A DNA stretch of 64,000 bases from Cohnella herbarum (lineage in GTDB: Bacteria; Bacillota; Bacilli; Paenibacillales; Paenibacillaceae): positions 1,612,001 to 1,676,000 of the forward strand of contig NZ_CP051680.1 of the NCBI RefSeq assembly GCF_012849095.1, written 5' to 3'. Below are positions 7,930 through 57,740 of the stretch, in pieces (the stretch's first letter is position 1; the number at the start of each line of letters is the position of its first letter). The translations under genes were made by a program, and so were the position numbers. A model generated the notes under the pieces. The model saw only the letters and a list, made by a program, of their open reading frames with translations, searched no databases and was not told the origin of the DNA.

Positions 7930-9549
7930 TTACATAGCTTTAGTCAACGTAATCGACCAGTCGGCTTTGTTCCAATTCAGATTCCAACCTAGCAGTTCGG
8001 CGATGAACCGAAGCGGTACCTGTGTACGGCCATCGTGTGCGAATACGGGAGCCATAAGATTGACGTTTTCTCCATTCACTTGCGCGATATCTTTACCTAA
8101 CCAGAAGACAACTTTATCCGTGCCTGTGTCCACTTCAACCGTAGCCGTGGAAGGAGACCATCTCAAGTCAGCGCCAAGCGCCATCGTCAACGTTCTTAAC
8201 GATACGAAGGTAACTGTGTCCTTGATTAAAGGCGCAACGTCCATTTCCACGTTATTGCCGTTAACTTTGGCTGTTTTCCCGTTGATTTGAAGCCATATCG
8301 TTTGAACTTCGTTCGAGGTTTCAGGCTCGGTTACAGGAAACTCCGACTGGAAAAAATCAGGCTTTTGCATCACGATTGCTCCCCCCAACGCTTTACCGAC
8401 TCCGAACATGAGATTGTACCCTTTATCATAGCTTGCATACAATCCGGAAGCGTCCTTGGCTCTATATAGATCAAATGCCTCAAGCACGAGCCTCTCATGT
8501 TCTGCTATGGCAGCCGTTGCGGCAGATGCCGGAAGTTTACCACCTGTGGCAGCGCCAAGAAAATTACCGAATTCAACGGAAAACTTGCTCAGCTTAGCTC
8601 TAGCTTGCATACTTGCATTCGCATCTCCGGCAAGGCTAGCCTTAACAATTTCGTCTTGCGCATTAATATGATCGCCAAACCACACGGTTTTGAAGGCTTC
8701 ACCGCCAGCTGCACCATACAGAGAGGTAATGGCTTCAGTAAAACCTACCGTATTGCCGTTCTCAGCTTCGAGAATCGCGGGATATGCGGGAGATTTATCC
8801 ATTCCTTTTTGCATGCTAATTACGGCAAGGGCATAATGTTCCGCGGCGAGATAGTTCAGTGCCGATCTCAGATCTCCAGCCGAAGTGTCCGGCCGGGTAC
8901 CATTAAATTTATCGGGCATTTGGGTGACAATTGCACCTGACAATGCATCGCTAATTACGAACATGAAGCTTAGGCCTTCACGATATTTGGCAAGCGAACT
9001 TGTGTAATTTCCGGCGACATAATCGTCGAATACTTGTTTGACTTGATCCTCGTGCTTACGAAGCACGTCTTGCGCCGCCGATGCAGGCAGCTTGCCTGCG
9101 GTCGCCGTACCCAAGAAGTTGCCAAGTTTGATTGCGAATTGTTCGATTTCTTTAGCGACACTGGTTTTATCGGCGGCATTATTAGACTTGACTGCCGTTA
9201 CGTAATCTTTCGTATAGTTAAGATGACCGCTGAAAATTCGGTCGAACTCTCTCGCCCCTTTCTCTCCGTATACGGAAGCAATAGCCGGCACCATATCTTT
9301 CGCGTTTTTCTCCAGTGCCGTTTGAGCCGCAGCAGCGTCGAACGAGTTGTCGTACTTCTTGATCATCGAGTCAACGGCGAGCGTGAAGTGCTCCGAAAGC
9401 AAGTAATCCAATGTCGCTCTCAGCTCTATCGCAGGCGTTTCGACGGTTGGTATCTTCGGTTCCGCAGCGCTTGCGCTCGTCGCGCCGGTAATCGTAGGGA
9501 ATAGTAATGACAGACTAAGTACGGGAGCTAACCATTTGTTCAGTTTCAT
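7930..9549 (-). CDS. Secreted protein with copper amine oxidase-like stalk domain
   Basis: This 539-residue secreted protein has a signal peptide ending near TSASAAEPK. Two related helical repeats follow, at about residues 40-220 and 225-400; both contain patterns like LDYLLSEHFTLAV and ALNYLAAEHYALAV, and FGNFLGAATGGKLPASAA. The C-terminal 120 residues are a 'copper amine oxidase N-terminal' stalk module (INGKTAKVNGNNVEMDVAPL ... FVSLRTLTMALGADLRW ... VPLRFIAELLGWNLNWN). Despite that family name no amine oxidase domain is present. Such stalk modules are abundant on Paenibacillus surfaces and probably bind the wall. GAGGAG lies upstream, and a GTTGGTCT/AGACCAAC hairpin (9571-9602) lies in the leader. 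Confidence 0.85.
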   Translation of the reverse strand: MKLNKWLAPVLSLSLLFPTITGATSASAAEPKIPTVETPAIELRATLDYLLSEHFTLAVDSMIKKYDNSFDAAAAQTALEKNAKDMVPAIASVYGEKGAREFDRIFSGHLNYTKDYVTAVKSNNAADKTSVAKEIEQFAIKLGNFLGTATAGKLPASAAQDVLRKHEDQVKQVFDDYVAGNYTSSLAKYREGLSFMFVISDALSGAIVTQMPDKFNGTRPDTSAGDLRSALNYLAAEHYALAVISMQKGMDKSPAYPAILEAENGNTVGFTEAITSLYGAAGGEAFKTVWFGDHINAQDEIVKASLAGDANASMQARAKLSKFSVEFGNFLGAATGGKLPASAATAAIAEHERLVLEAFDLYRAKDASGLYASYDKGYNLMFGVGKALGGAIVMQKPDFFQSEFPVTEPETSNEVQTIWLQINGKTAKVNGNNVEMDVAPLIKDTVTFVSLRTLTMALGADLRWSPSTATVEVDTGTDKVVFWLGKDIAQVNGENVNLMAPVFAHDGRTQVPLRFIAELLGWNLNWNKADWSITLTKAM

Positions 9550-9718
9550 GAATCATTCACTCTCCTCAGGGTTGGTCTTATTTCGTTTCTAATTAGACCA
9601 ACGGAGAGAATGAAACTTTGGATCACATTCTTCTCCATCTTTTTCCCGAGCAGTTGTTGGTTATGTATCTTCATCTGGGTATTTGCTGAGATTTATTTAC
9701 TCTGGGTATTTGTACTGT

Positions 9719-9793: not shown

Positions 9794-9916
9794 TTGAGCG
9801 GAGTTGTTGGCGGGTATGGCGGTAGCTGCGGCGGATACGGCGGAGGCATGCAAGCGGCTGCATTTGCGCTTGTTCTCTTCATCCTTTTGGTAATCATCTT
9901 AAGAGCTGCCTACTAA
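9794..9916 (+). CDS. YjcZ-family small spore protein
   Basis: A 40-residue glycine-rich, membrane-inserting peptide of the YjcZ sporulation family. The N-terminus reads LSGVVGGYGGSCGGYGGGMQ (TTG start) and is followed by one hydrophobic helix, ALVLFILLVIILRA. TTG at 9794 is preferred because GGTGG lies 8 nt upstream and relatives start MSGVVGGYGG; a GTG at 9785 is an alternative. YjcZ-like peptides are made in the mother cell late in sporulation and their function is unknown. The gene is too short for normal ORF thresholds, and a near-identical core is encoded at 32623-32751. Confidence 0.85.
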   Translation: MSGVVGGYGGSCGGYGGGMQAAAFALVLFILLVIILRAAY

Positions 9917-9928
9917 CAAATTCATTGT

Positions 9929-9957
9929 AACCCGCGATGTACGATCGATCGCGGGTT
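9929..9957 (+). terminator. Intrinsic terminator of the YjcZ gene
   Basis: A 10-bp stem AACCCGCGAT/ATCGCGGGTT followed by a run of T on the plus strand, 12 bp after the YjcZ stop codon. Confidence 0.9.
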
Positions 9958-9980
9958 TTTACTACGCAATAGGAACACCG

Positions 9981-10262
9981 TTACACATCCGATGGACGCC
10001 GAGCTCGTTTTACTTTTGAGCCTCGTACCATTCCGGAATTTTTATTTTTCTTCCTATCCTTCGATTGCCTGTTATCAAGAACGATCGGTTGGAAGGGCAT
10101 CGTCACATTGAAGCTTGGACTATCAAAAGAGACCTCGTCTTTGTCGCCTTCGGTTGATCCCTGATTGCTCTGTGATGTGTTGTTAGGGACGCCGTTGACA
10201 TTACCGAAAATAATCGTTCCTTCGTTTTTTACAATCGTTATCCTTCCGATATGACAAAACAT
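9981..10262 (-). CDS. GerPA/GerPF-like small spore protein (tentative)
   Basis: A 93-residue protein whose N-terminal half (HIGRITIVKNEGTIIFGNV, then a Ser/Asn/Gly-rich GVPNNTSQSNQGSTEG) recalls the GerPA/GerPF spore-coat germination family (pattern V/I-G-x-I-x-I-x(4)-G-x-I-x-FG). The C-terminus is very basic (SKDRKKNKNSGMVRGSKVKR). The ATG at 10262 is chosen; AAGGAAG lies 11 nt upstream, a long spacing. CATAAGATA on the minus strand (10313-10321) matches a sigma-K -10 box, although the -35 AC is not at the ideal spacing. The family call rests on a short motif. Confidence 0.5.
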   Translation of the reverse strand: MFCHIGRITIVKNEGTIIFGNVNGVPNNTSQSNQGSTEGDKDEVSFDSPSFNVTMPFQPIVLDNRQSKDRKKNKNSGMVRGSKVKRARRPSDV

Positions 10263-44164: not shown

Positions 44165-45355
44165 TCAATTCCCAGTCACGAACCGATGAGCCATCAGCGC
44201 GTATACTTTCGCGGCCTTTACGACTTGGTCCAAGGGAACGAATTCATTCGGGGCGTGGGCGACGTCGATGCTTCCCGGACCGTAAAGCAAGGAAGGAATG
44301 CCGGCTGCCGACAGAAGCTCGACCTCGGCGTACCCGTTAAAGCCCATGAAGGCGGACTCTTCACCGGTTGCGTCATTGATTGCTTCCGATAGACGAACGA
44401 CGACTTCTTCCCCGTCCGATAACGTCCACGTACTAAAGCTTTGCTTCAAAACCAACTCGACTCCGAGTCCTTCGTCGCGATTCAAGGCATCCGTCAGATG
44501 GCGGACTTCCTTCTCCGCCAGTTCCATCGACTCGGTAGGCAACACCTGTCGGTCGAAATCGACATCGCAGAAATCCGGCACGAGCGTGACCCCGACACCC
44601 CCTTGGATTTTCCCGACATTGACGGTGGGATGCCGAAGATCGGGATCGCTGACAACCTTCGCCAACCCGTCGTTGTACTCCCTCAAAGCTTCGAGATAAC
44701 GACCCATCTTGAATATGGCGTTATCCCCGTTAAACGCGACTCCGGTATGCGCGCTGCGACCGACCGTTCTTGCGGAGAACTCCATCGCGCCTTTCAGTCG
44801 ATTGCCGATCCGAAGGCTTGTCGGTTCGGAGATACAAGCCATGACGCAATCGGCTAGTTTATCGTTGGACAGCAATGCCTTCGTGCCGAGGAAGTTGACC
44901 TCTTCGTCGATAACCGCGGTAAACAACAGCCCCCTGGAGCGGACGACTTTGCTTTGTACCAACGCCTGAACCGCGAAGATCATCGAAGCGACTCCGGCCT
45001 TCATATCGCACGAGCCTAAGCCGTACATTTTCCCGTCCCGGATTTCCGCCGCCCATGGATCACTGTCCCAGAGCTCTAAGTTACCGGCGGGCACGGTGTC
45101 CGTATGGCCGTTGAACAACAGCTTTTCCGGCCGTTCTCCTTCCAGGGCGACGATGACGTTCACCCGATCCCCTTCGACTTCCTGCAATTCCACTTGGCAA
45201 CCGATCGATCGAAGCTTATCCGCGATCAACCGGGCAACGGCTCCCTCCCTTCCGGGAGGATTCTCGCTATTCGTGGCGACCAATTGCCGAAGAAACCGAA
45301 TGAGCTCCTCCTCGTCGATGAGTTGAAGCAGTTCGTTCTCTTGTTGCGTGAGCAT
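44165..45355 (-). CDS. M20-family (ArgE/DapE-like) metallopeptidase in the hut cluster
   Basis: About 396 residues with the M20 di-zinc hydrolase plan: LFNGHTDTVPAGN, GLGSCDMKAGVAS and VIDEEVNFLGTKAL supply metal ligands and the catalytic Glu, and a lid domain follows (RTVGRSAHTGVAFNGDN). The family hydrolyses N-acyl or dipeptide bonds. It is the last gene after hutH-hutU, 36 bp downstream, so it may release histidine from an N-acyl-histidine or His-dipeptide, or act on a formyl/formimino-glutamate product; this is inference from position. ATG 45355 has AAAGG 9 nt upstream. Confidence 0.85.
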   Translation of the reverse strand: MLTQQENELLQLIDEEELIRFLRQLVATNSENPPGREGAVARLIADKLRSIGCQVELQEVEGDRVNVIVALEGERPEKLLFNGHTDTVPAGNLELWDSDPWAAEIRDGKMYGLGSCDMKAGVASMIFAVQALVQSKVVRSRGLLFTAVIDEEVNFLGTKALLSNDKLADCVMACISEPTSLRIGNRLKGAMEFSARTVGRSAHTGVAFNGDNAIFKMGRYLEALREYNDGLAKVVSDPDLRHPTVNVGKIQGGVGVTLVPDFCDVDFDRQVLPTESMELAEKEVRHLTDALNRDEGLGVELVLKQSFSTWTLSDGEEVVVRLSEAINDATGEESAFMGFNGYAEVELLSAAGIPSLLYGPGSIDVAHAPNEFVPLDQVVKAAKVYALMAHRFVTGN

Positions 45356-45391
45356 GCTCATCCGCCTTTCTATGCGAACACCGCGAATAGA

Positions 45392-47062
45392 TTAATCCTT
45401 AGCGATCATCGGCATTCGGATTCCTTTATTCCTCGCGGTTTCTATGGCTAAATCATAACCCGCATCGGCGTGGCGGACAACACCCATTCCGGGATCCGTC
45501 GTCAGCACGCGTTCAAGACGCTCCTCCGCCTCTTTCGTTCCGTCCGCCACGACGACCATACCCGCGTGCATCGAGTAACCCATCCCTACGCCGCCGCCGT
45601 GGTGCACGGATACCCAGCTAGCTCCCGCGGACACGTTAACGAGCGCATTCAGAATCGGCCAATCCGCCACGGCGTCGCTGCCGTCCCGCATCGCTTCGGT
45701 TTCGCGATTCGGGGATGCCACGGATCCCGCGTCCAGGTGGTCGCGTCCGATAACGATCGGAGCTTTCAGTTCGCCAGTGGCGACCATATCGTTAATGATT
45801 TTGCCGAATTGGGCGCGTTCCCCGTACCCCAACCAACAGATTCTCGCCGGTAAGCCTTGGAACGCGATTTTTTCTTTCGCCATCCTGATCCATTTGCACA
45901 GATGCTCGTTATGCGCGAAAGTCTTCATGACGACTTCATCCAGTTTGTAGATATCCTCGGGATCTCCGGATAGCGCCGCCCAACGAAACGGACCTTTCCC
46001 TTCGCAAAATTGCGGGCGGATGTAAGCAGGTACGAATCCCGGAAAATCGAAAGCGTTGCTCACGCCTTCGTCGAAAGCGACTTGGCGAATATTGTTGCCG
46101 TAATCGAATACGATCGAACCTAGCTTTTTCATTTCCAGCATCGCTTCCACGTGGACAGCCATGCTCGATTTGGACAGCTTCACGTATTGCTCGGGATTTT
46201 CTTCGCGCAGCTTGCGCCCTTGTTCAAGCGTATAGCCGGCCGGCAAATAACCGTTCAGCGGATCGTGCGCGGACGTCTGGTCCGTTACGATATCCGGTAT
46301 GAACGCTTTGCCGATCATCGCCGGCAATACTTCCGCCGCGTTGCCGACTAACCCGATGGACAGCGAGCGACCCTCGCTGGCCGCTTCCTTGGCAAGTGCG
46401 ATCGCCTCGTCCAAGCTGTCGACCACCTGATCCAGATAGCGGGAGTCGATTCGTTTCTGGATACGCGTCGCGTCGACGTCTATTCCGATCACGACACCAT
46501 CGTTCAACGTCACGGACAGCGGCTGCGCGCCTCCCATTCCGCCCATTCCGGCGGTTACGGTGATCGTTCCTTTCAGCGATCCTCCGAAATGCTGCCGCGC
46601 GAGCTCCGCGAACGTTTCGTAAGTCCCCTGAACGATGCCTTGGCTCCCGATATAAATCCAGCTTCCGGCCGTCATCTGACCGTACATCATCAAACCCTTT
46701 TTATCGAGCTCGTGGAACTTCTCCCAATTCGCGAATGCCGGCACGAGGTTCGAGTTAGCCAGCAACACGCGCGGCGAGTGTTTATGCGTCCGGAACACGG
46801 CGACCGGTTTACCAGATTGTATAAGCAAGGTTTCGTCTTCTTCCAGATTCTTAAGGGCCTTAACGATCGCATCGAAGCTTTCCCAGTTGCGGGCGGCTTT
46901 GCCGATTCCGCCGTAGACGACGAGCTTATCGGGGTGTTCGGCAACATCGGGATCCAGATTGTTCATCAGCATGCGCAAGGCGGCCTCTTGGACCCAGCCT
47001 TTCGTGTTCAGCACGGTTCCTCTTGGCGCGCGCACCTCACGCGGATTAGACTCGTTACTCAT
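45392..47062 (-). CDS. hutU: Urocanate hydratase
   Basis: The 556-residue, full-length HutU converts urocanate to imidazolonepropionate with tightly bound NAD+. Hallmarks are [16 protein letters not shown] near the N-terminus, the NAD-binding glycine-rich [18 protein letters not shown], the active-site Cys region [17 protein letters not shown] and the C-terminal [17 protein letters not shown]. It starts 17 bp after hutH with GGGGG 8 nt upstream of the ATG. Confidence 0.97.
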
Positions 47063-47078: not shown

Positions 47079-48647
47079 TTATTGAATGACCGCTACGGCG
47101 GACATCGCTTCGGCAATATTGGTTCGTTTCATCCACTCGGCAATAATCTCGAAATCGTGCGACAAAATGCGATCCACGGTAACGGCCGGAATCAGCTCGC
47201 GACAATGCTCGTATAGCCAAGTCGTGCCAAGCCCAAGCAGCTTCGGATCGCGAAAATCGACGGCTTGCGCACCGCATAACAGCTCGATGGCGAGGACGGC
47301 ATACGCGTTATCGACGATTTGCCTCGCCTTCCGCGCGCCGATCGTTCCCATGCTCACATGGTCTTCTTGGTTACCGGACGATGGGATCGAATCTACGCTG
47401 GCCGGATGCGCCAACGATTTATTTTCCGAGACGACCGCTGCCGCCGCATATTGAGCGATCATAAAACCGGACTCGAGTCCGCCGTTCGTCGTTAAGAATG
47501 GCGGCAAGCTCTCGTTCAAATGCGGATTAACGAGCCGTTCCACGCGGCGCTCGGAGATATTAGCCAGTTCGGCGGCGCTGATGGACAGATGATCCATCGC
47601 CAGCGCGATCGGTTGTCCGTGGAAGTTGCCGCCCGAAATGACTCGGTCCTCATCCACGAAGATGAGCGGATTGTCCGTCGCCGAGTTGATCTCGATCTCC
47701 AGCTTGTTCGCGATATATGCGAGCGCATCTCGGCTAGCTCCGTGCACTTGAGGCGCGCAACGCAAAGAATAGGCGTCCTGCACGCGCTTTTCTCCCTGAT
47801 CGGTCATCAATCGGCTGCCCGAAGTTAACGCCCGGATATTCGCCGCGGAACGGCTTTGCCCTGGATGCGGGCGAATGCGGTGCGTCGAGGCGTGGAACGC
47901 GTCGCGAACTCCGAAGAGCGCTTCGCTGGTCAGCGAAACAGCGCAATCCGCCCAGTTGGCAAGATTAAGCGCATCCCAGCAAGCTAGCGTGCCAACAGCG
48001 GTCATGACCTGCGTACCGTTAATGAGCGCGAGTCCTTCTTTGGCCTCCAGCGTAACGGGAACGAGACCCGCCATCGCCATCGCTTGACCGCCCGGCAATC
48101 TCTCGCCGTGATAATACGCTTCTCCTTCACCCACGAGCACGAGCGCGAGATGCGACAACGGGGCCAAATCGCCGCTTGCGCCAAGCGAGCCTTTCTCCGG
48201 AATGACCGGCGTGACTTCCCGATTGAGCATGTCCGCGAGCAGAAGGACGACCTCCGGACGGATACCCGAATATCCGAGCGCCAGAGCATTGACCCTCAGC
48301 AGCATAATCGCCCGGACAACTTCGATCGGAAACGGGGCGCCGATTCCGCACGCATGGCTCCGTATGAGATTGATTTGCAACGTCTGCACGTCTTTGCCGG
48401 AAATGTACGTATCGCTAAATTTACCGAATCCAGTCGTGAGTCCGTAGACGACTTTCTGTTCGTCGAGCAGCTTCTCCACGTAATCGCGGGTACGCTTCAT
48501 CAGTGCGACGCTCTCCGGCAGAATGTCAACTTCGGCATAATTTCTGGACACGCGCACGACCTGTTCGATCGTCATCTCTCCGCCGCCCACCATGACGGGG
48601 GTCTCTTTCATCGGTTGCGCCTGTTGCTCTTGATGTACTTGTTTCAT
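47079..48647 (-). CDS. hutH: Histidine ammonia-lyase
   Basis: About 522 residues. HutH removes ammonia from L-histidine to give urocanate, the first step of the pathway. The self-processed MIO cofactor arises from Ala-Ser-Gly in [17 protein letters not shown] at about residue 156. Other conserved blocks are [30 protein letters not shown] and [17 protein letters not shown] 48647 is chosen because AGGTG lies 6 nt upstream; a longer frame to 48689 would overlap the attenuator. It is preceded by a HutP-type attenuator. Confidence 0.97.
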
Positions 48648-48679
48648 GATCCGCACCTGCTTTACGAGTAATAAAAAAA

Positions 48680-48721
48680 AGCCAACCAAAAAAGGGTTCG
48701 GCTTCTAATCACTAATCGCTA
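48680..48721 (-). promoter_or_regulatory. HutP-type attenuator before hutH
   Basis: In the minus-strand RNA three UAG triplets (48719-48721, 48712-48714, 48705-48707) are spaced by exactly 4 nt. The terminator hairpin AGCCGAACC/GGTTGGCU (48680-48703) with a long U run follows directly. NAG-N4-NAG-N4-NAG is the known recognition pattern of HutP, so histidine-bound HutP would prevent termination. Only 20 bp separate it from the hisD stop, so it gates read-through from the upstream operon. Confidence 0.85.
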
Positions 48722-48741
48722 AAGGGCCATATTCTTTTTGT

Positions 48742-50031
48742 TTATTTTCCGCTGCCTTCTTCCGAGTTCGCCATGCGCAGCTTAACGGAATAAGCATGGC
48801 CTTGCAGCCCTTCGAATTCGGCTAACGCAGCTATTTTATGTCCATTGGCCGCCATGTCCGCCCGACTATAACTGACCAAGCTCATTTTCTTAATGAAGTC
48901 GTCCACGGACAACGGGGACGAGAAACGGGCTCTGCCGCTCGTCGGCAGCACGTGATTCGGTCCTACGTAATAATCTCCGATAGGAACCGGGCTATTGTTG
49001 CCGATAAATACGGCTCCCGCATGCTTGACTTTGCCTAATCGTTCGAAAGGATCGGCGATGCACAACTGTAAGTGCTCCGTTGCCAATTCATTCACGATAT
49101 CGAACGCCTCATCCAAACTATTGGCTATACATATGGCGCTCCATTGATCGATCGATTGTGCGGCAATCTCTTTGCGATTCAGATGCTCGAGCTGACTTAA
49201 CACTTGCTCCTGCACTTGTTCGGCTAACGCGGCCGAAGTCGTAACCAATATCGCCGAAGCGAGCGGGTCGTGTTCGGCTTGGGCAAGTAAATCCGCCGCG
49301 GTAAATTCCGGATTGGCCGTTTCATCCGCGAGGATCACGACTTCGCTAGGGCCGGCAATCATGTCGATGTCTACGTCTCCATAGACTTCCCGCTTGGCAG
49401 CCGCTACGAAGGCGTTGCCGGGCCCGGTTATTTTATCGACTTTGGCGATCGATTCCGTCCCGTAAGCGAGAGCCGCGATCGCCTGGGCGCCGCCGACTTT
49501 GAAAATCTCGGTTATGCCTAACTCTCTAGCCGTGACCAGAACCGCGGCATTCATCCTGCCGTCCTTGCCTGGAGGAGTCGTCATCACGATCTGTTCGACG
49601 CCCGCTACAAGCGCGGGTATGGCGTTCATCATGACCGATGACGGATAGGAAGCCGTACCGCCGGGAACGTAGATCCCTACTCGTTCCAACGGCCTGACCA
49701 GTTGACCTAGAATCGTGCCCGACTCCGTCGCGTTCATCCACGATTGCCGAACTTGTCTTTCATGATAATCCCGGATATTGCGAATCGCGCTGCGGATCGC
49801 ATCGAGCAACGTATCGTCGATCGCTTCGAAAGCTTCATCGAACTCTTCCGGTTGGACTTTCAAATGCGCTAGCTTGACTCGGTCGAATCTTTCCGTCATC
49901 TCAAGAAGCGCCTGATCGCCATTTTGCTTTACTTGCTCTATGATATTCAGAACGTCTTCCCTACGATCCTGCCCTTTGGAAGCTCTGCTCCGATTGGCAC
50001 GCAATTGTTGGCGTTGCATCACCTTAAGCAA
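48742..50031 (-). CDS. hisD: Histidinol dehydrogenase in the hut cluster
   Basis: A 429-residue, apparently intact HisD: GIYVPGGTASYPSSVMMNAI, FKVGGAQAIAALAYGTE, KITGPGNAFVAAAKREVYG, AQAEHDPLASAILVT and PNHVLPTSGRARFSSPLSV are all family hallmarks. It oxidises L-histidinol via histidinal to L-histidine with NAD+ and Zn. No other his biosynthesis genes are nearby; it lies between an ABC importer and hutH, so a catabolic role (histidinol to histidine to urocanate) is likely. TTG 50031 has AAGGAG 9 nt upstream. Confidence 0.93.
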   Translation of the reverse strand: MLKVMQRQQLRANRSRASKGQDRREDVLNIIEQVKQNGDQALLEMTERFDRVKLAHLKVQPEEFDEAFEAIDDTLLDAIRSAIRNIRDYHERQVRQSWMNATESGTILGQLVRPLERVGIYVPGGTASYPSSVMMNAIPALVAGVEQIVMTTPPGKDGRMNAAVLVTARELGITEIFKVGGAQAIAALAYGTESIAKVDKITGPGNAFVAAAKREVYGDVDIDMIAGPSEVVILADETANPEFTAADLLAQAEHDPLASAILVTTSAALAEQVQEQVLSQLEHLNRKEIAAQSIDQWSAICIANSLDEAFDIVNELATEHLQLCIADPFERLGKVKHAGAVFIGNNSPVPIGDYYVGPNHVLPTSGRARFSSPLSVDDFIKKMSLVSYSRADMAANGHKIAALAEFEGLQGHAYSVKLRMANSEEGSGK

Positions 50032-50055
50032 TAGTCCGCGCTCCTTCCAGCCTGT

Positions 50056-50898
50056 CTATCCTTTGTTCGCCGTCTTGTTCTTCAGCGATTTCTGAAGCTC
50101 CAGCTCCATGATGATCGCTCTCTTATAATACATGAATTTATCCGATAGTTGATCGTTGAAATCTCTCGGCTTAGGAATATCGATCGTCATCTCTTGGGCG
50201 ACGCGGCCCGGATGCGCGCTCATAATGTAGAGGCGGTCAGACAAATAGATCGCTTCATCCACGTCATGCGTAACGAATAATACGCTGCATTTCTCTTCCG
50301 ACCATACTTTCATGACCAGATCCTGCATTTCCCTGCGCGTCTGCGCGTCCAACGCGCCAAAAGGCTCGTCCATAAGCAGCAAAGAAGGATGGAACACCAA
50401 CGCGCGGGCGATCGCCACCCGTTGCTGCATGCCGCCTGACAACTGCGCTGGATACGACATCTCGAACCCTTTAAGACCGACCAAATCCAAATAATGATAG
50501 GCCTTTTCCTTTTTCTGGGCGGCGCTTAAATCTTCCGCTTTCTTCAAAGCGAACGCGACGTTCTCCCACGCATGCAACCAAGGCAGCAAGCTATATTGCT
50601 GGAATACGACGCCCCGATCTCTGCCCGCCCCGGTAATCGGCTCGTTATGCAGGATCAATTCGCCCTCCGTCATAGGGTCGAGTCCGGCTACCAGTCTAAG
50701 GAAGGTCGACTTCCCGCAGCCCGAAGGGCCTAGCAGCGAGACGAACTCTCCTTTACCGATCGTTAAGCTAACGTCTTCCATCGCCGTGATCGTTTTCTTG
50801 TGGCTTTCGAACTTCTTGGTCACGTTGCGCGCAACCAGCATCTGTTCCGGTCGAGCGGACGAATTCCGTGCATCTTGCATGACCATGTCCCCTTTCAT
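50056..50898 (-). CDS. NitT/TauT-type ABC importer ATPase in the hut cluster
   Basis: The 280-residue ATPase is of the SsuB/TauB type: Walker A LGPSGCGKSTFLRLVAG, Q-loop GVVFQQYSLLPW, signature LSGGMQQRVAIARAL and Walker B LLMDEPFGALD. It overlaps the permease gene by 4 nt. ATG codons at 50898, 50886 and 50880 are possible; the last has the best-spaced AAAGGGG site. Confidence 0.92.
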   Translation of the reverse strand: MKGDMVMQDARNSSARPEQMLVARNVTKKFESHKKTITAMEDVSLTIGKGEFVSLLGPSGCGKSTFLRLVAGLDPMTEGELILHNEPITGAGRDRGVVFQQYSLLPWLHAWENVAFALKKAEDLSAAQKKEKAYHYLDLVGLKGFEMSYPAQLSGGMQQRVAIARALVFHPSLLLMDEPFGALDAQTRREMQDLVMKVWSEEKCSVLFVTHDVDEAIYLSDRLYIMSAHPGRVAQEMTIDIPKPRDFNDQLSDKFMYYKRAIIMELELQKSLKNKTANKG

Positions 50899-51659
50899 CC
50901 CTTAGCTTTCTCCAGCGCTTTCCAAGGGAACATTTTTTTGTACAACAGCGAGAACAGCATATCGGTAATCAAACCTAGCAAACCGATGATCAGGATTCCT
51001 AGTATGATTCGATCCGTTGCCATGTACCGCTGCGCCTGCATGATCCGGTATCCGAGACCGGAGGAGGCGGCAACGAGCTCCGCGACGACGAGATAAGTCC
51101 ATGCCCAACCCCAAGTCGTACGGAATGTGTCCATCATTCCCGGAAGCGCGGCTTTGAACGTGATATGTCTTAGAATTTCCCTTTTGTTAAAGCCAAGCGT
51201 CTTTCCGACCTCGATTAACGATTTGTTTACCGTTTTGCAATTGTCGGCGATCATAATGACTTCTTGGAAGAACACGCCCAAGAACAGAATGAAGAACTTC
51301 TGAATATCGGACGCTCCGAACCACAAGATCGATAACGGAATAAAAGCGACCGCCGGCATATAGCGGATCAGGGCGATTAGCGGTTCCCAGATCGCTTGCC
51401 AGGCTCGGGAAGTGGCGATCAACATCCCGATCGGAACGGCGAAGATCGTAGAGATCAGAAATCCGACTGATATCCGATAGAAACTCGTGCCGACGTCCTT
51501 AAAGAAAATGCCTTCTTCGATTTCTTGCTTCAATGCCTGAACGATATCTCCGGGCGTAGGCAAGAACAAGCTATCCACCATATTCGTATACGTGAATATC
51601 GACCAGACTGCCAGCACCAGGAGAACGCTGGAGATAGAATAGATGGTATACCGCGACAT
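50895..51659 (-). CDS. NitT/TauT-type ABC importer permease in the hut cluster
   Basis: About 254 residues with six likely membrane helices and the inner-membrane-component loop motif EVGKTLGFNKREILRHITFK AALPG near the C-terminal third, as in SsuC/TauC. AAGGAGG lies 7 nt before ATG 51659; a longer frame to 51749 runs through the intercistronic hairpin and is rejected. Confidence 0.92.
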   Translation of the reverse strand: MSRYTIYSISSVLLVLAVWSIFTYTNMVDSLFLPTPGDIVQALKQEIEEGIFFKDVGTSFYRISVGFLISTIFAVPIGMLIATSRAWQAIWEPLIALIRYMPAVAFIPLSILWFGASDIQKFFILFLGVFFQEVIMIADNCKTVNKSLIEVGKTLGFNKREILRHITFKAALPGMMDTFRTTWGWAWTYLVVAELVAASSGLGYRIMQAQRYMATDRIILGILIIGLLGLITDMLFSLLYKKMFPWKALEKAKG

Positions 51660-51696
51660 ATGTCGTCCTCCTTCGCTATCCTCCATGCTTCGAAGA

Positions 51697-51734
51697 GACC
51701 GTTGCGGTTCGGACTCGTCCGCCCCGCAACGGTC
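51697..51734 (-). other. Intercistronic hairpin between importer lipoprotein and permease
   Basis: GACCGTTGCGG (51697-51707) and CCGCAACGGTC (51724-51734) form a perfect 11-bp stem without a U-tract. It lies between the binding-protein and permease genes, where such stems often stabilise the upstream mRNA and raise binding-protein dosage. Confidence 0.6.
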
Positions 51735-51776
51735 GCCTTGCAGAAGCACGGCTAGTAACGCCGCTATTGAGATTGC

Positions 51777-52820
51777 TTATTTCGTCGGAACAATTTTTTG
51801 CAAGTCCACTTCTTTATCAAGCGCGCCCTGCTCAATCAGGATTTGCTGGATGTTCTGCACGGATTTCAACAATTCGCCGGAATCAAGCAGCTTGTTCTGA
51901 TCTTCAGTGGAGAAATATTTCAGTCCGTCCAGAATGACCGGAAGCTCTTCCGCCGAAATTCCGCTTTCTTTAGCTACGATTTCGTTACCTTCGGCCTGAT
52001 TCGCTTTCCAGTAAGCTAGAGACTCGTCCCAAGCTTTCATCAATTTTTCCTTCAAGCCCGCATGCTCCTCAAGGAAATCCGTGCGTACGATGGCAATATC
52101 GCTAATCAATCCGGGAGCGTTCTCGCCCGAATACAGAATGCTTGCATCGCCTTTGTTCATGATCGTCGAAATGTAAGGCTCATAGGTAACGGCCGCATCG
52201 ACTTTCTTGGCGAGCAGTGCCATCCCTGCATCGGAAGCCGGCATTTGAACGAATTTAACATCGTCCAAGGAAATGTTGTTTTCTTTAAGCGCTTTACGGA
52301 TAAGAAGGTCGGAAGTCGTTCCTTCTTCGAAAGCGATCTTCTTGCCTTTCAATTGCGTTATGCTGTCGATGCCTGTTAATCCAAGAACGGCGTCCGCTTT
52401 GTGCGACTCGTCCAAGAAAATAACGCCGGTCATCGGAACGCCCTCTTTCGTGGCCAGCTTGATGGCCGTGTGCGTCGCGACGTTAGACACTTGAATGACG
52501 TCGGCGGCATAGGCCGCGTTCATGTCCGCATCTTGGTTAAACATCTTGATCGTTACATCCAGACCGTGTTTCTTGAAAATTCCCGCCTTGTCGGCAATCC
52601 ACCAAGGTCCGTTTCCGACCCACGGCTGCATGCCCATCGCCAAGCTGACCGGCTCGTCCGATTGCTCGGGCGACGCCGACGGATCGGACGAAGCCGAGCT
52701 CGCGCTAGATGCCGCCGGAGAAGAAGCCGGTTGTTTTTCATTGTTGTTACCATTGGAACCGCAGGCTGACAGCAAGCTTACGAACATGCATAATGCGGTT
52801 AACACGACCCACTTCTTCAT
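51777..52820 (-). CDS. NitT/TauT-type binding lipoprotein in the hut cluster
   Basis: A 347-residue lipoprotein: signal and lipobox VSLLSACGSNG, a Ser/Ala-rich linker, then an SsuA/NMT1-like two-lobed domain (LAMGMQPWVGNGPWWIADKA, GIFKKHGLDVTIKMF, KGKKIAFEEGTTSDLLIRKA). The family imports aromatic or heterocyclic organic acids, sulfonates, nitrate or pyrimidine precursors. Its place under HutP control and next to hisD suggests an imidazole compound such as histidinol, histidine or urocanate; the sequence alone does not decide. Confidence 0.88.
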   Translation of the reverse strand: MKKWVVLTALCMFVSLLSACGSNGNNNEKQPASSPAASSASSASSDPSASPEQSDEPVSLAMGMQPWVGNGPWWIADKAGIFKKHGLDVTIKMFNQDADMNAAYAADVIQVSNVATHTAIKLATKEGVPMTGVIFLDESHKADAVLGLTGIDSITQLKGKKIAFEEGTTSDLLIRKALKENNISLDDVKFVQMPASDAGMALLAKKVDAAVTYEPYISTIMNKGDASILYSGENAPGLISDIAIVRTDFLEEHAGLKEKLMKAWDESLAYWKANQAEGNEIVAKESGISAEELPVILDGLKYFSTEDQNKLLDSGELLKSVQNIQQILIEQGALDKEVDLQKIVPTK

Positions 52821-52910
52821 TCGCTACACTCCATCTCATTCTTTTTTCGACTCGATTATCCTTATTTCGCGCAATCATGTCCGGTTGTAAACGAATATCA
52901 TCGTAAGCAT

Positions 52911-52989
52911 AAAAAAAATAGAATGAACTCCGAAAAAGGAAACGCAAAGTTTCCCTGTTCAAAGCTTCATTCTATCGGCTAAATCACTA
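52911..52989 (-). promoter_or_regulatory. HutP-type attenuator before the ABC importer
   Basis: In the minus-strand RNA UAG triplets at 52987-52989, 52979-52981 and 52972-52974 are spaced by 5 and 4 nt. The last touches the base of a terminator hairpin (AGAAUGAA/UUCAUUCU, 52920-52973, with an inner GGAAAC/GTTTCC stem) followed by an eight-U run. It closely resembles the hutP leader. Confidence 0.78.
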
Positions 52990-53078
52990 TATAGAGCTTT
53001 GATCAAATAAACATCGTTATGAGAGGGAAAGATTCTTGATGAGTAATGTTATCTGACATCCAGCAATGATGATACTGA

Positions 53079-53092
53079 TGATATCGCTTACA
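53079..53092 (-). promoter_or_regulatory. Candidate cre (CcpA) site in the importer leader
   Basis: TGTAAGCGATATCA on the minus strand fits every position of the cre consensus TGWAANCGNTNWCA. It lies just downstream of the candidate importer promoter, a repressing position. Confidence 0.6.
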
Positions 53093-53111
53093 ACTAAACA
53101 CTCATACTAAT

Positions 53112-53141
53112 AATATCCTTCATTTCGACGTTTATTGTCAA
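53112..53141 (-). promoter_or_regulatory. Candidate sigma-A promoter of the importer-hisD operon
   Basis: On the minus strand TTGACA (53136-53141) and GATATT (53112-53117) are 18 bp apart, just past the hutI stop. The -10 box is weak (4 of 6), so some expression may also be read-through from hutI. The 329-bp gap holds this promoter, the cre site and the HutP attenuator, and no gene. Confidence 0.5.
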
Positions 53142-53149
53142 TATGTTTT

Positions 53150-54439
53150 TCATTGCGAGAGCCTGCTGCCTTCGGAAACGACGACCTTCCCCCGTTTAAT
53201 TACCGCGTTAACGTGGTTAATGCCGAAATGATAAGGTAAATAAGCCAGATTGTTCGCTTCAAAAATAACCAAATCTCCTAGTTTTCCTACCTCCAGACTA
53301 CCGATCGAATCCCCGCGTCCGATGGCGTATGCCGCGTTAATCGTCACGGCGGTCATCACCTCCTCCGGCGTCATTCCTAGATTCAAGCAGGCCAGCGTCA
53401 TGACGAGCTGGATGGATTCCGTCGGCGAGCTTCCGGGATTATAGTCCGTCGATAACGCGACCGGTAACCCGAACTCGATCATCTTGCGAGCCCGAGCGTG
53501 ACGGGTCAGCCGCAGGTTAAACGATGTCGCCGGCAAACAGACGGCAATGACGCCCGCGCGTTCCATCGCCTCCAAGCCTTCGTCCGAAGCCGCGAGCAAA
53601 TGCTCGGCGGATACGCAGCCGATTCGGCCGGCAAGCTCCGCGCCGCCCATCGGTTCGATCTCGTCGGCGTGGATTTTCAAGCCGAAGCCAAGGGCCTTAG
53701 CCGCGACCAATATCCGTTCCGATTGCTCGACCGTGAATACGCCATGCTCGCAAAATACGTCGCAGAATTCCGCGAGATTTAATCGCTTGACTTCGGGCAA
53801 CATTAGTCGTATCAGCAGTTCTACGAATTCGTCGGAACGGCCTTTGTATTCTTCCGGCACCATATGCGCACCCATGAAAGTAGACACCATATCCACCGGA
53901 TGGGACTCGTTCAAGCTTCGGGTTACCCTTAGCTGTTTCAATTCATCCTGTAGCGTGAGCCCGTATCCGCTCTTGGCTTCGACGGTCGTAACGCCGTGCA
54001 GCAGCATGATGTCCAAGCTTCGGCGCGCTTTCGCGTATAGCTCTTCCTCGGTAGCTTGACGGGTTGCGCGCACCGTGCATAGAATTCCGCCGCCTTGAGC
54101 CAGGATTTCCAAATACGTGCTTCCTTTTAATTTCAACGCGAGCTCGTGCTCGCGAGATCCTCCGTGTACCAGATGCGTATGCGGATCGACAAGTCCGGGA
54201 GTGACCAACCTCCCGCCTGCATCGAATTGTTCCGCGATAGCCGCATTGCCGAGTTGCGCTCTTACTTTATCTTCAGGGCCAACCGCAACGATTTTCCCTT
54301 CGCTTATGGCTACGGCTCCGTTAGAAACCATCGACAACTCCGACATCTCGGCTCCTTTGCGAGCTGCCGCTTTTCCTGCCATCGTCACCAACGTTCCGAT
54401 GTTATGCACCAACAAATCGATTCCTGTTCCCGTTTCCAT
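53150..54439 (-). CDS. hutI: Imidazolonepropionase
   Basis: About 429 residues of the amidohydrolase superfamily. HutI opens the imidazolone ring to N-formimino-L-glutamate. Metal ligands are in VDPHTHLVHGGSREHEL, further catalytic residues in KIHADEIEPMGGAEL, and ALSTDYNPGSSPTESIQLVM is the HutI-specific C-terminal block. It starts a few bases after hutG; ATG 54439 has AAGGGTGAG upstream, with 54454 as an alternative. Confidence 0.96.
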   Translation of the reverse strand: METGTGIDLLVHNIGTLVTMAGKAAARKGAEMSELSMVSNGAVAISEGKIVAVGPEDKVRAQLGNAAIAEQFDAGGRLVTPGLVDPHTHLVHGGSREHELALKLKGSTYLEILAQGGGILCTVRATRQATEEELYAKARRSLDIMLLHGVTTVEAKSGYGLTLQDELKQLRVTRSLNESHPVDMVSTFMGAHMVPEEYKGRSDEFVELLIRLMLPEVKRLNLAEFCDVFCEHGVFTVEQSERILVAAKALGFGLKIHADEIEPMGGAELAGRIGCVSAEHLLAASDEGLEAMERAGVIAVCLPATSFNLRLTRHARARKMIEFGLPVALSTDYNPGSSPTESIQLVMTLACLNLGMTPEEVMTAVTINAAYAIGRGDSIGSLEVGKLGDLVIFEANNLAYLPYHFGINHVNAVIKRGKVVVSEGSRLSQ

Positions 54440-54454
54440 TGTCTCACCCTTCAT

Positions 54455-55432
54455 CTATGGATTCGATCTCATCGCGTATCCGGTCAAGAACGTTAGAATA
54501 ACGTACAACGTCATCCTAACGGTCGCTCTCCGCGGATCTTGCATCGGGTCGACGCAGACGATATCGAACGCTTTAACTTTCGGATGCCTACCCAGCATGT
54601 AAGCCGCTTCCAGCAATTTCCACGGCGTCATACCGGCGGGTACCATCGCGGGTACGCCCGGCGCGAAAGCCTGATCCAACACGTCCATGTCCACCGTTAC
54701 GTAAATCGCCTCCGTGCCGTCTCCCGCAGCTTTGATCGCTTTCTCCACTAAGCTTTCTATGCCTGCGCGATGCACTTGATTCGCCGTAAATTGCAAGATG
54801 CCTTGGGATTTGGCGTAATCGTGGTAAGCTTTGGAATTGGCGAAGCTATGGATGCCGATCTGAGCGATATTCCGTCCTTCCACCGTGCCGGACTCCAACA
54901 AGCCCCGTATCGGCGTTCCGTTCGACGGCCCTCCGTCTTCCAGGTTCCTTACGTCCATATGGGAATCGATTTGCACGATGCCGACCTTACCGCCCGCATG
55001 CTTACGGAAAGCCTTAACCGACGGACAAGTAATGGAATGGTCTCCGCCCGCGATAATAGGAAACAAGCCGGGCAATGTCTCGTATACATTGTTCAGGCCC
55101 TGTTCGATGTTCGCATGGCATTTCAACAAATCCGTTACGTGCATCGAGATGTCGCCTAGATCTCTGGCACGTAGATGCTGCAGATCCACTTCGTGATCTA
55201 CGTTGTAAGTCGTCGCGTTCGCGAACAATTCCCGGAGCGCGTTCGGCGTCATGGAAGCGCCGGAGACGCTAATCGACGTCTTGGATAACGGGACGCCGAT
55301 GAAGCCGATCTCCGGAAGCTCTACGCCATCCCACGGCGTCAACCACTGCGCGACTTTCGTTTCGTAACGGTCTCTCCAGTTGGATCGCCTGATGATTTCC
55401 GGCGGGTTAAGAAATTCGATTTGCTTGGTCAT
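54455..55432 (-). CDS. hutG: Formimidoylglutamase (ureohydrolase family)
   Basis: About 325 residues of the arginase/agmatinase family. Manganese ligands are in IAGGDHSITCP, VQIDSHMDVRN and VTVDMDVLDQAFAPGVPAM. In this context it hydrolyses N-formimino-L-glutamate to glutamate and formamide, the last step of the four-enzyme hut route of Bacilli. ATG 55432 has AAGGGA 10 nt upstream. A HutP attenuator lies between it and hutP. Confidence 0.93.
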   Translation of the reverse strand: MTKQIEFLNPPEIIRRSNWRDRYETKVAQWLTPWDGVELPEIGFIGVPLSKTSISVSGASMTPNALRELFANATTYNVDHEVDLQHLRARDLGDISMHVTDLLKCHANIEQGLNNVYETLPGLFPIIAGGDHSITCPSVKAFRKHAGGKVGIVQIDSHMDVRNLEDGGPSNGTPIRGLLESGTVEGRNIAQIGIHSFANSKAYHDYAKSQGILQFTANQVHRAGIESLVEKAIKAAGDGTEAIYVTVDMDVLDQAFAPGVPAMVPAGMTPWKLLEAAYMLGRHPKVKAFDIVCVDPMQDPRRATVRMTLYVILTFLTGYAMRSNP

Positions 55433-55469
55433 AGGTTCTTCGTCCCTTCGAACGGTTGATAACAAAAAA

Positions 55470-55513
55470 AGCCAACCCAAAATCAGGTTATGGCTTCTAA
55501 TCGCTAATCGCTA
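55470..55513 (-). promoter_or_regulatory. HutP-type attenuator before hutG
   Basis: Three UAG triplets (55511-55513, 55504-55506, 55497-55499) are spaced by exactly 4 nt, directly before the terminator hairpin AGCC(AU)AACC/GGUUGGCU (55470-55495) and seven U. The UAG block is nearly identical to that before hutH. Confidence 0.85.
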
Positions 55514-55549
55514 TAAGGATTCGATTTACTTCCGCTATTATTCCGATAA

Positions 55550-56011
55550 TTAAATATGGTTAAATCCGAATCCGATCGCTTCGTGCTCGAAGCCTTTTTT
55601 CGGGGCGCCGATCGTCCCGTATACGCAGACGGCTATCCATTCGCCGCTATGCTCCAATGCTCCGTCCATTTTACCCCGAACGATGCTGAACGTTAAACCG
55701 ACCGTGCGCAAGATATCGCCGAATTGCACGACTCCCCGCCCGATGCTCTGAATCGCTTCGATAATAGCGTGATAGACGGCATGAATTTCGCGATACGATT
55801 CGCTGTCGATGATTTTATTGTTTTTGGCGGCCGTCTCGATCGCGGTCACGACCTTGATAATGTCCATCGCTCCGACTCGCCCTATCGTGAAACGGAACCC
55901 TTTCGCGGTCAATTCGTCTTCCACGTCTTTTCTCCATTCGTGATCCTGGAGGACGGCGAGCATGATCGATAATTTGCCGATCGGGAATGAAGCCGCTTTC
56001 GAGTTTGTCAT
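55550..56011 (-). CDS. hutP: HutP antiterminator protein
   Basis: The 153-residue HutP is an RNA-binding hexamer that, with L-histidine and Mg2+, binds NAG repeats and disrupts terminators of hut mRNA. Family features include the N-terminal helix IGKLSIMLAVLQDHEW, VGAMDIIKVVTAIETAAK, QSIGRGVVQFGDILRTVGLT and the signature C-terminus GFEHEAIGFGFNHI with the His residues used for metal/histidine binding. AAGGGG lies 7 nt before the ATG. It is first in the cluster and has its own attenuator, suggesting autoregulation. Confidence 0.95.
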   Translation of the reverse strand: MTNSKAASFPIGKLSIMLAVLQDHEWRKDVEDELTAKGFRFTIGRVGAMDIIKVVTAIETAAKNNKIIDSESYREIHAVYHAIIEAIQSIGRGVVQFGDILRTVGLTFSIVRGKMDGALEHSGEWIAVCVYGTIGAPKKGFEHEAIGFGFNHI

Positions 56012-56056
56012 GTCATATCCCCTTATGAGTCAACTTCTGGACGTCATCTTAAGCGA

Positions 56057-56128
56057 CAAAAAAAGTGCGCTTGAACAGGAGATCATCGTCTCCAACGTCC
56101 AAGCGGCACACTATCGGCTAAATAACTA
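56057..56128 (-). promoter_or_regulatory. HutP-type attenuator before hutP itself
   Basis: UAG triplets at 56126-56128, 56118-56120 and 56111-56113 (5- and 4-nt spacing) precede a terminator hairpin: GUG(C)CGCUUG pairs with CAAGCGCAC across 56065-56110, with an inner stem and a seven-U run. The last UAG abuts the stem base. It shares the UAUUUAGCCGAUAG core with the importer leader (UGAUUUAGCCGAUAG). Confidence 0.78.
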
Positions 56129-56143
56129 TTGCGCTCTGCTCTT

Positions 56144-56173
56144 ACTATACTCACGCCTTGCGGTTTAAGTCAA
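56144..56173 (-). promoter_or_regulatory. Sigma-A promoter of the hut cluster
   Basis: On the minus strand TTGACT (56168-56173) and TATAGT (56144-56149), 18 bp apart, lie directly before the hutP attenuator. Confidence 0.7.
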
Positions 56174-57339: not shown

Positions 57340-57383
57340 CTTTCTACCGAAATTATTCAGGTATGGCTAGGTACAATGGGATT

Positions 57384-57740
57384 GTATCGATTATTTCGAG
57401 TAACTCTCGCAGAAACTGGTCACCTCGCTGGAATTAGTCGAATTTTTCGAGTAACTCTCGCAGAAACTAGTCACCTCGCTGGAATTAATCGAATTTTTCG
57501 AGTAACTCTCGCAGAAACTGGTCACCTCGCCGGAATTAATCGTATTTTTCGAGTAACTCTCGCAGAAACTGGTCACCTCGCTGGAATTAATCGAATTTTT
57601 CGAGTAACTCTCGCAGAAACTGGTCACCTCGCTTGAATTAGTCGAATTTTTCGAGTAACTCTCGCAGAAACTGGTCACCTCGCTGGAATTAATCGAATTT
57701 TTCGAGTAACTCTCGCAGAAACTAGTCACCTCGCTAGCTA
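57384..57740. repeat. Seven 51-bp tandem repeats
   Basis: The motif GAGTAACTCTCGCAG recurs at 57398, 57449, 57500, 57551, 57602, 57653 and 57704, exactly 51 bp apart. Units differ only at a few positions (CTGGTC/CTAGTC, TTAGTCG/TTAATCG). Because 51 is a multiple of 3, open frames run through on both strands, but none has a ribosome site. There are no spacers, so it is not CRISPR. Confidence 0.95.

Follow-up and report, generated by a model that had tools for sequence, protein, structure and literature searches.

Four predicted HutP-responsive leaders in one hut cluster

The window analysed here is a 64,000-nucleotide (nt) stretch of the Cohnella herbarum genome (contig NZ_CP051680.1, positions 1,612,001 to 1,676,000). 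It carries a minus-strand run of histidine utilization (hut) genes in the order hutP, hutG, hutI, three genes of an ATP-binding cassette (ABC) importer of the NMT1/SsuA type, hisD, hutH, hutU and an M20 deacylase gene (Table 1). Upstream of hutP, hutG, the ABC-importer gene and hutH we found a predicted binding site for the antiterminator HutP, consisting of three UAG triplets placed directly 5' of a hairpin and U-run. UAG triples spaced by 4 or 5 nt occur exactly four times in the 64 kb, with both strands considered, and all four are on the minus strand. The first-pass annotation of this DNA, which was made from the sequence alone, had described four leaders with UAG triplets 4 or 5 nt apart followed by terminators, and each was found where it had been placed.

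Folding of the four leaders, which the same annotation had proposed, gave hairpins with U-runs in every case, at -11.3 to -28.9 kcal/mol. Compared with shuffled sequences, the folding z values were -3.1 (hutP), -2.5 (hutG), -6.2 (importer) and -1.9 (hutH); the hutH hairpin is the weakest of the four because 11 of 200 shuffles fold equally well. In addition to the promoter-like sequence of the hutP leader (Table 1), one was identified upstream of the importer leader (TTGACA-18-GATATT, 10/12 consensus matches), whilst the promoter scan as a whole returned 20 matches against a shuffle mean of 10.7, or about twofold, a single match being weak evidence. No second cluster of NAG triplets (N being any nucleotide) was detected from 80 nt upstream to ~110 nt downstream of any leader, overlapping registers aside. 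Searches against Rfam 15 returned no match in the window, nor in the HutP loci L045, L061, L073, L077, L105 and L119.

Table 1. Leader elements and genes of the hut cluster (positions are those of the window)
Feature	Position	Strand	Details
HutP site (predicted), hutP leader	56111..56128	-	UAG-5-UAG-4-UAG
HutP site (predicted), hutG leader	55497..55513	-	UAG-4-UAG-4-UAG; model R2 E 3.6e-8, leader in training set
HutP site (predicted), importer leader	52972..52989	-	UAG-5-UAG-4-UAG; model R1 E 2.2e-9, leader in training set
HutP site (predicted), hutH leader	48705..48721	-	UAG-4-UAG-4-UAG; model R2 E 2.0e-9, leader in training set
Intrinsic terminator, hutP leader	56058..56109	-	hairpin 56065-56109 + U-run; leader -24.0, hairpin -22.8 kcal/mol
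Intrinsic terminator, hutG leader	55462..55497	-	hairpin 55468-55497 + U-run; leader -13.5, hairpin -11.3 kcal/mol
Intrinsic terminator, importer leader	52911..52974	-	hairpin 52919-52974 + U-run; leader -28.9, hairpin -25.9 kcal/mol
Intrinsic terminator, hutH leader	48671..48705	-	hairpin 48678-48705 + U-run; leader -11.3, hairpin -10.0 kcal/mol
Promoter-like sequence, hutP leader	56144..56173	-	TTGACT-18-TATAGT, 10/12 consensus matches
Putative antiterminator 5' arm, hutP leader	56130..56134	-	GCGCA pairs with UGUGC at 56106-56110; p 0.194
Antiterminator 5' arm (predicted), importer leader	52995..53002	-	UCAAAGCU pairs over 8 bp with AGCUUUGA at 52959-52966; p 0.002
hutP, HutP antiterminator, 153 aa	55550..56011	-	PF09021, NF002838, PDB 4ok9 matches
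hutG-like formimidoylglutamase (arginase family)	54455..55432	-	PF00491 E 6.1e-71; TIGR01227 219.4 bits, slightly below cut-off 229.15
hutI, imidazolonepropionase	53150..54415	-	TIGR01224 486.8 bits
ABC-importer substrate-binding lipoprotein (NMT1/SsuA-like; tauA label)	51777..52820	-	PF09084 E 2.8e-21; no specific NCBIfam cut-off reached
ABC-importer permease (tauC label)	50895..51662	-	PF00528 E 2.2e-25
ABC-importer ATPase (tauB label)	50056..50898	-	PF00005 E 7.1e-32
hisD (histidinol dehydrogenase), second genome copy	48742..50031	-	TIGR00069 563.5 bits
hutH, histidine ammonia-lyase	47079..48647	-	TIGR01225 693 bits
hutU, urocanate hydratase	45392..47062	-	TIGR01228 994.6 bits
M20 ArgE/DapE-family deacylase, last gene of the run	44165..45361	-	TIGR01910 265.3 bits

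Chance expectation and genome-wide controls

For the 4/4 spacing, two sites were observed against 0.14 expected from shuffling of the 64 kb, with at least two arising in 3 of 100 shuffles; for the 5/4 spacing, two were observed against 0.07 expected, a count reached in none of 100 shuffles. A search of the whole 8.5-Mb genome with patterns joining the site to a U-run matched, apart from the four leaders, eight places. In seven of them the third UAG is not abutted by any hairpin; the remaining one, at 1909 kb with 5/5 spacing, does show a hairpin, but a weak one (-8.4 kcal/mol), and is antisense within a coding frame. These patterns demand UAG at all three positions and found no further leader-like site elsewhere in the genome; sites with other NAGs were covered only through two covariance models, R1 and R2 (see below), which recovered the importer, hutH and hutG leaders in this genome but missed that of hutP. 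Taken together, the shuffle expectations and the character of the other genome matches, which are not leader-like, led us to reject chance triplets as an explanation.

A tandem array of five UAGs, 4 nt apart, at 865 kb was also considered and rejected, as it lies at the end of a surface-protein gene and the terminator is at least 14 nt off. Following that terminator are two tandem stretches (L146, ~1570-1850) that, judged by their motif, are candidate cyclic di-GMP riboswitches.

The HutP protein

The hutP gene is single-copy in the genome, and its product matches PF09021 with an E-value of 3.6e-31 (108.5 bits against a cut-off of 25) and NF002838 with 205.5 bits against a cut-off of 155. Amongst solved HutP structures the best match was PDB 4ok9 (E 1e-44), with others weaker. 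Residues H77, H81, H143, R102, T103 and E142 align with H73, H77, H138, R98, T99 and E137 of Bacillus subtilis HutP and are invariant among 21 aligned homologs; we take these to be the residues of the solved protein that contact metal, ligand (histidine) and RNA. Judged by its sequence, this HutP is a genuine member of the family.

Recurrence of the element in relatives

We compared the best 80 of 475 relatives together with 19 stretches from family genomes, using two rules. The first required at least two U among the three NAGs and a hairpin of -8 kcal/mol or lower within 9 nt; the second, stricter rule allowed any NAG, but required the hairpin within 6 nt and a position upstream of an annotated gene. 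Under the first rule the element was present in 62 of 91 non-duplicate loci, twice in 27 of them and four times in the window only. In five of these 27 two-site loci the second site stands before a gene outside the annotated set, and at least that of L113 looks like chance. The strict rule placed the element in 60 of 90 loci, where it stands before hutH in 51, hutP in 25, an importer gene in seven and hutG in one, the last being the window; one of the 25 hutP-leader sites, that of L052, is unconvincing. A further 30 class-wide HutP loci showed the element after hutP in 20, whilst two yielded no hutP end and eight no element. In Geobacillus and others, GAG or CAG replaces some of the UAGs, which is consistent with the NAG rule.

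Importer genes are found next to the element in several relatives. Five loci (L031, L043, L048, L055 and L056) share the order importer-binding gene, hutP, permease, ATPase, hisD, hutH, with sites preceding the first gene (importer-binding) and hutH. Additionally, in L114 and L115 the element stands upstream of a binding-protein gene of the oligopeptide type, and in L057 upstream of one of the spermidine type, both types being named by eye from the translations.

Several further arrangements were seen in these loci. In the Paenibacillus dendritiformis group (L034 at 1189; L036 at -18457/-18299), a full leader before hutH is followed by a second tandem UAG triple whose terminator hairpin has seemingly been lost. 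L115 is a hutP-hutH cluster with HutP leaders on a plasmid, pBO1 of Cytobacillus oceanisediminis. Upstream of hutP in L119, the 9900-9998 region has consecutive UAG triplets spaced 4 nt apart (UAGUUAA repeats). Finally, Peribacillus butanolivorans (L073) has a HutP-like leader at 9591 on the minus strand, divergent from hutP; downstream of it, the first open reading frame to reach 100 aa is one of 113 aa at 8985-9326.

Leaders and triplets track the presence of HutP

HutP was detected in 21 of 197 Paenibacillaceae genomes, in 20 of them above the cut-off. A covariance-model scan of this family, as suggested by the first-pass annotation, was performed with two models, one for each Paenibacillus leader type: R1 (built from 21 leaders) and R2 (from 16). 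They matched 17 and 16 family genomes, respectively. Combined, they match 17 of the 21 HutP-bearing genomes (all except G105, G128, G129 and G172) vs 6 of the 176 HutP-less ones (Fisher p 4e-16). Three NAGs with spacers of 4-6 nt were intact in all 28 matches from HutP genomes and in only one of six from HutP-less genomes (p 2e-5). In this count G031 was scored by eye as not intact, its triplet match being downstream of the hairpin, and the one register shown for G098 is that of a second, downstream site, the R1 site there being likewise intact.

One HutP-less genome, G196, belongs to the same genus as the window and has an importer-hisD-M20 run with 73-91 percent identity for the importer proteins, 82 for hisD and 75 for M20. 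Its leader retains the antiterminator arms as well as the hairpin, but UUG has replaced the middle UAG, and no HutP was found in this genome. This change looks like relaxation of the triplets after loss of their reader. In the stretch concerned (L186; C11:1562000-1577000), none of the hut genes used as queries accompanies the importer-hisD-M20 cluster.

A covarying helix predicted to close the triplet loop

Immediately 5' of the triplets lies a stretch complementary to the 5' arm of the terminator, and the two arms covary across Bacilli. In the window this closing helix, a putative antiterminator, is clear for the importer and plausible for hutP, where its 5 bp fall within the minimum-energy fold of the truncated transcript; it is weak for hutH (4 bp including a G-U pair, p 0.060) and hutG (3 bp, p 0.48). 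Folds of the growing hutP and importer transcripts show the spanning helix until the 3' arm of the terminator appears, and the terminator thereafter.

For 33 representative leaders (84 leaders thinned at 70 percent identity, with L052 left out as unconvincing), the best flanking helices sum to 360, compared with 249.8 +- 18.4 for shuffled upstream flanks (maximum 311.5 in 2000) and 282.5 +- 18.3 for flanks swapped between leaders (maximum 342). For the common Bacillus type, a set of 30 distinct hutH leaders, which excluded both Paenibacillus types as well as 15 loci that gave no hairpin under the rule of the set, summed to 381.5, as against 189.2 +- 18.2 when shuffled and 288.8 +- 15.3 with arms swapped (maximum 347; none of 1000 reached the observed value). 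Covarying arm pairs of this type include AGCCC/GGGCU, AGCCU/AGGCU, GACC/GGUC, UAGUCC/GGACUA, AUAACCC/GGGUUAU and CGCCU/AGGCG, and the third pair of the helix is C-G in 22 leaders, A-U in four, G-C in three and U-A in one. Between the arms lies a loop of 17-24 nt, sized from the same type, which carries the triplets.

Two duplicated leader pairs

Local alignment of the hutG and hutH leaders scored 38 against a maximum of 16 in 2000 shuffles, and that of the hutP and importer leaders 30 against a shuffle maximum of 17, whilst the four cross pairs scored 10-17, inside the shuffle range. On these alignments, the four leaders are two duplicated pairs. The two site classes noted in the first-pass annotation correspond to two duplicated leader lineages; the differing binding strength proposed for them is not supported as such, the visible contrast between the classes being in terminator strength and antiterminator helix. 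Given two homologous pairs, and two-site clusters in relatives, an ancestral pair of leaders, each duplicated, is the simplest history, and on that history the duplication would have occurred when hutP and hutG-hutI came to be apart.

Other genes of the run

The other hisD copy of this genome sits amid HisZ, HisG, IGPD, His_biosynth, PRA-CH and PRA-PH genes, and since that copy is found among histidine biosynthesis genes, a catabolic role for the cluster hisD is plausible, perhaps acting on histidinol imported by the ABC importer. Elsewhere in the window, positions 57376-57729 hold a short tandem-repeat coding stretch with two overlapping frames.

A probable four-gate HutP regulon and its alternatives

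We consider it highly probable that this cluster is a four-gate HutP regulon, in which histidine-loaded HutP holds an antiterminator at serial, partly autogenous gates. That the leaders are HutP antitermination sites, as first proposed, is backed by the adjacent single HutP, the recurrence of the element in hut clusters of Bacilli and its tracking of HutP. By default, the terminator hairpin would form and RNA polymerase would halt at the U-run. With plentiful histidine, a HutP hexamer carrying histidine and a divalent metal would bind the three UAGs, situated in the loop between the short upstream arm and the 5' arm of the terminator, and would keep these arms paired as an antiterminator, or at least block the terminator, such that transcription continues. 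The strong hutP and importer gates would act at transcript starts, after their own promoter-like sequences, and the weaker hutG and hutH gates, which lie between genes, would act on read-through from upstream; with promoter-proximal and intercistronic gates combined, distal genes would be read through several gates in series. Furthermore, hutP would be positively autoregulated through its own leader, a self-gating already suggested in the first-pass annotation and supported by the promoter-like sequence of that leader and by the occurrence of a leader upstream of hutP in 25 of the 90 loci. We infer that this particular HutP binds, that histidine is required, that events follow this order and that the gates are serial and autoregulatory, and on the same footing each segment may be gated separately.

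A broader formulation, which is quite possible but which we hold tentatively, sees a two-state element across Bacilli: a covarying antiterminator hairpin that carries the triplets in its loop and has the 5' arm of the terminator as its 3' strand, its formation being templated by the HutP ring. With four such switches in series, histidine use could become steeply cooperative and perhaps bistable, and it would also take in the importer and histidinol dehydrogenase, and thus histidinol or a related histidine source.

A number of results speak against these proposals. Under the strict rule 30 of 90 loci lack the element, some having variant spacings by eye, and a generic terminator scan listed none of the four leader hairpins. 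The leaders on which R1 and R2 were trained were picked for intact triplets, partly from the same HutP-positive genomes, and G145 keeps an intact triplet although no HutP was found there. With respect to the helix, only that of the importer is significant alone among the four window leaders, and p < 0.05 was reached alone in only 11 of the 33 representatives. For the 20 further class-wide loci with the element, the sum of 229.5 exceeds the shuffled 118.4 +- 17.1, but overlaps the arms-swapped control (205.0 +- 12.1, maximum 240), so that this set alone is not separable from the swapped control; three of the 20 (L203, L209 and L218) may repeat loci already used. Finally, the predicted antiterminator folds of hutP and the importer pair some UAGs within the loop, which HutP would have to open.

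The usual summary of the B. subtilis system is a plain steric block, in which HutP on triplets at or in the foot of the terminator prevents folding, with the flanking helix unused. For the leaders considered here we judge this unlikely, since the covarying upstream arm lies outside the terminator and would have no reason to match the 5' arm. It does agree, however, with the hardly discernible flanking helices of the hutG and hutH leaders, and with accounts that HutP stops terminator formation (PMC7430163) and binds sequence repeats of the T-loop (PMC8934654). A more doubtful alternative to the four-gate regulon is that only the promoter-proximal hutP and importer leaders regulate, the hutG and hutH hairpins being leaky or decaying remnants. 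The weaker hairpins (z of -1.9 for hutH) and weak closing helices at these two leaders would fit such decay, yet all three UAGs are intact in both, whereas triplets decay in HutP-less genomes, and relatives commonly carry intercistronic hutH leaders whose triplets are intact. It is very improbable that these are terminators with incidental UAG triplets, or the sites of another RNA-binding protein: UAG is short and the patterns also match eight unrelated genome places, but chance expectations are 0.14 and 0.07, the eight places are not leader-like, and the leaders co-occur with HutP.

Relation to known antitermination systems

HutP and the principle of its antitermination are already known, to our knowledge from one terminator in one organism. 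What is new, as far as we have checked, is the multi-gate cluster that includes hutP itself, the link to an importer, the covarying antiterminator, and the lack of an Rfam 15 entry in the loci tested; an earlier description of the closing helix in B. subtilis is possible, and the title of a 2004 report by Oda speaks of 'hut antiterminator RNA'. In the open literature searched, nothing was found on HutP in Paenibacillus, nor anything combining HutP, UAG and terminator. If the leaders work as proposed, HutP would act at the level of a regulon, with importers as well as its own gene among its several targets. The covarying helix would, in turn, offer a testable account of how a ring protein on single-stranded triplets turns a terminator off, for which four natural leaders of two strengths, and the decayed leaders of HutP-less genomes, form a ready test set.

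TRAP, of the trp system, is like HutP a ring-like protein that reads regularly spaced NAG triplets; it causes termination and uses around eleven triplets with shorter spacers. The hut operon of B. subtilis has a single terminator, between hutP and hutH, and unlike that operon the present cluster has four leaders, one of them before hutP, with the importer and a second hisD under predicted control. HutP activated by histidine and Mg2+ is described as binding NAG clusters and keeping the terminator from forming (PMC7430163). The two systems share the protein family. They also have in common three NAGs ~4 nt apart with a terminator overlapping or abutting them, and they differ in that B. subtilis is described as having two NAG clusters 20 nt apart where each leader here has one (PMC7430163). 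The antiterminators BglG, SacY and LicT, with their ribonucleic antiterminator (RAT)/terminator pairs, are similar in that a protein-stabilized antiterminator helix excludes the terminator (PMC8934654, PMC7430163); these proteins are, however, unrelated to HutP, which here would hold a 17-24-nt triplet loop rather than a structured stem.

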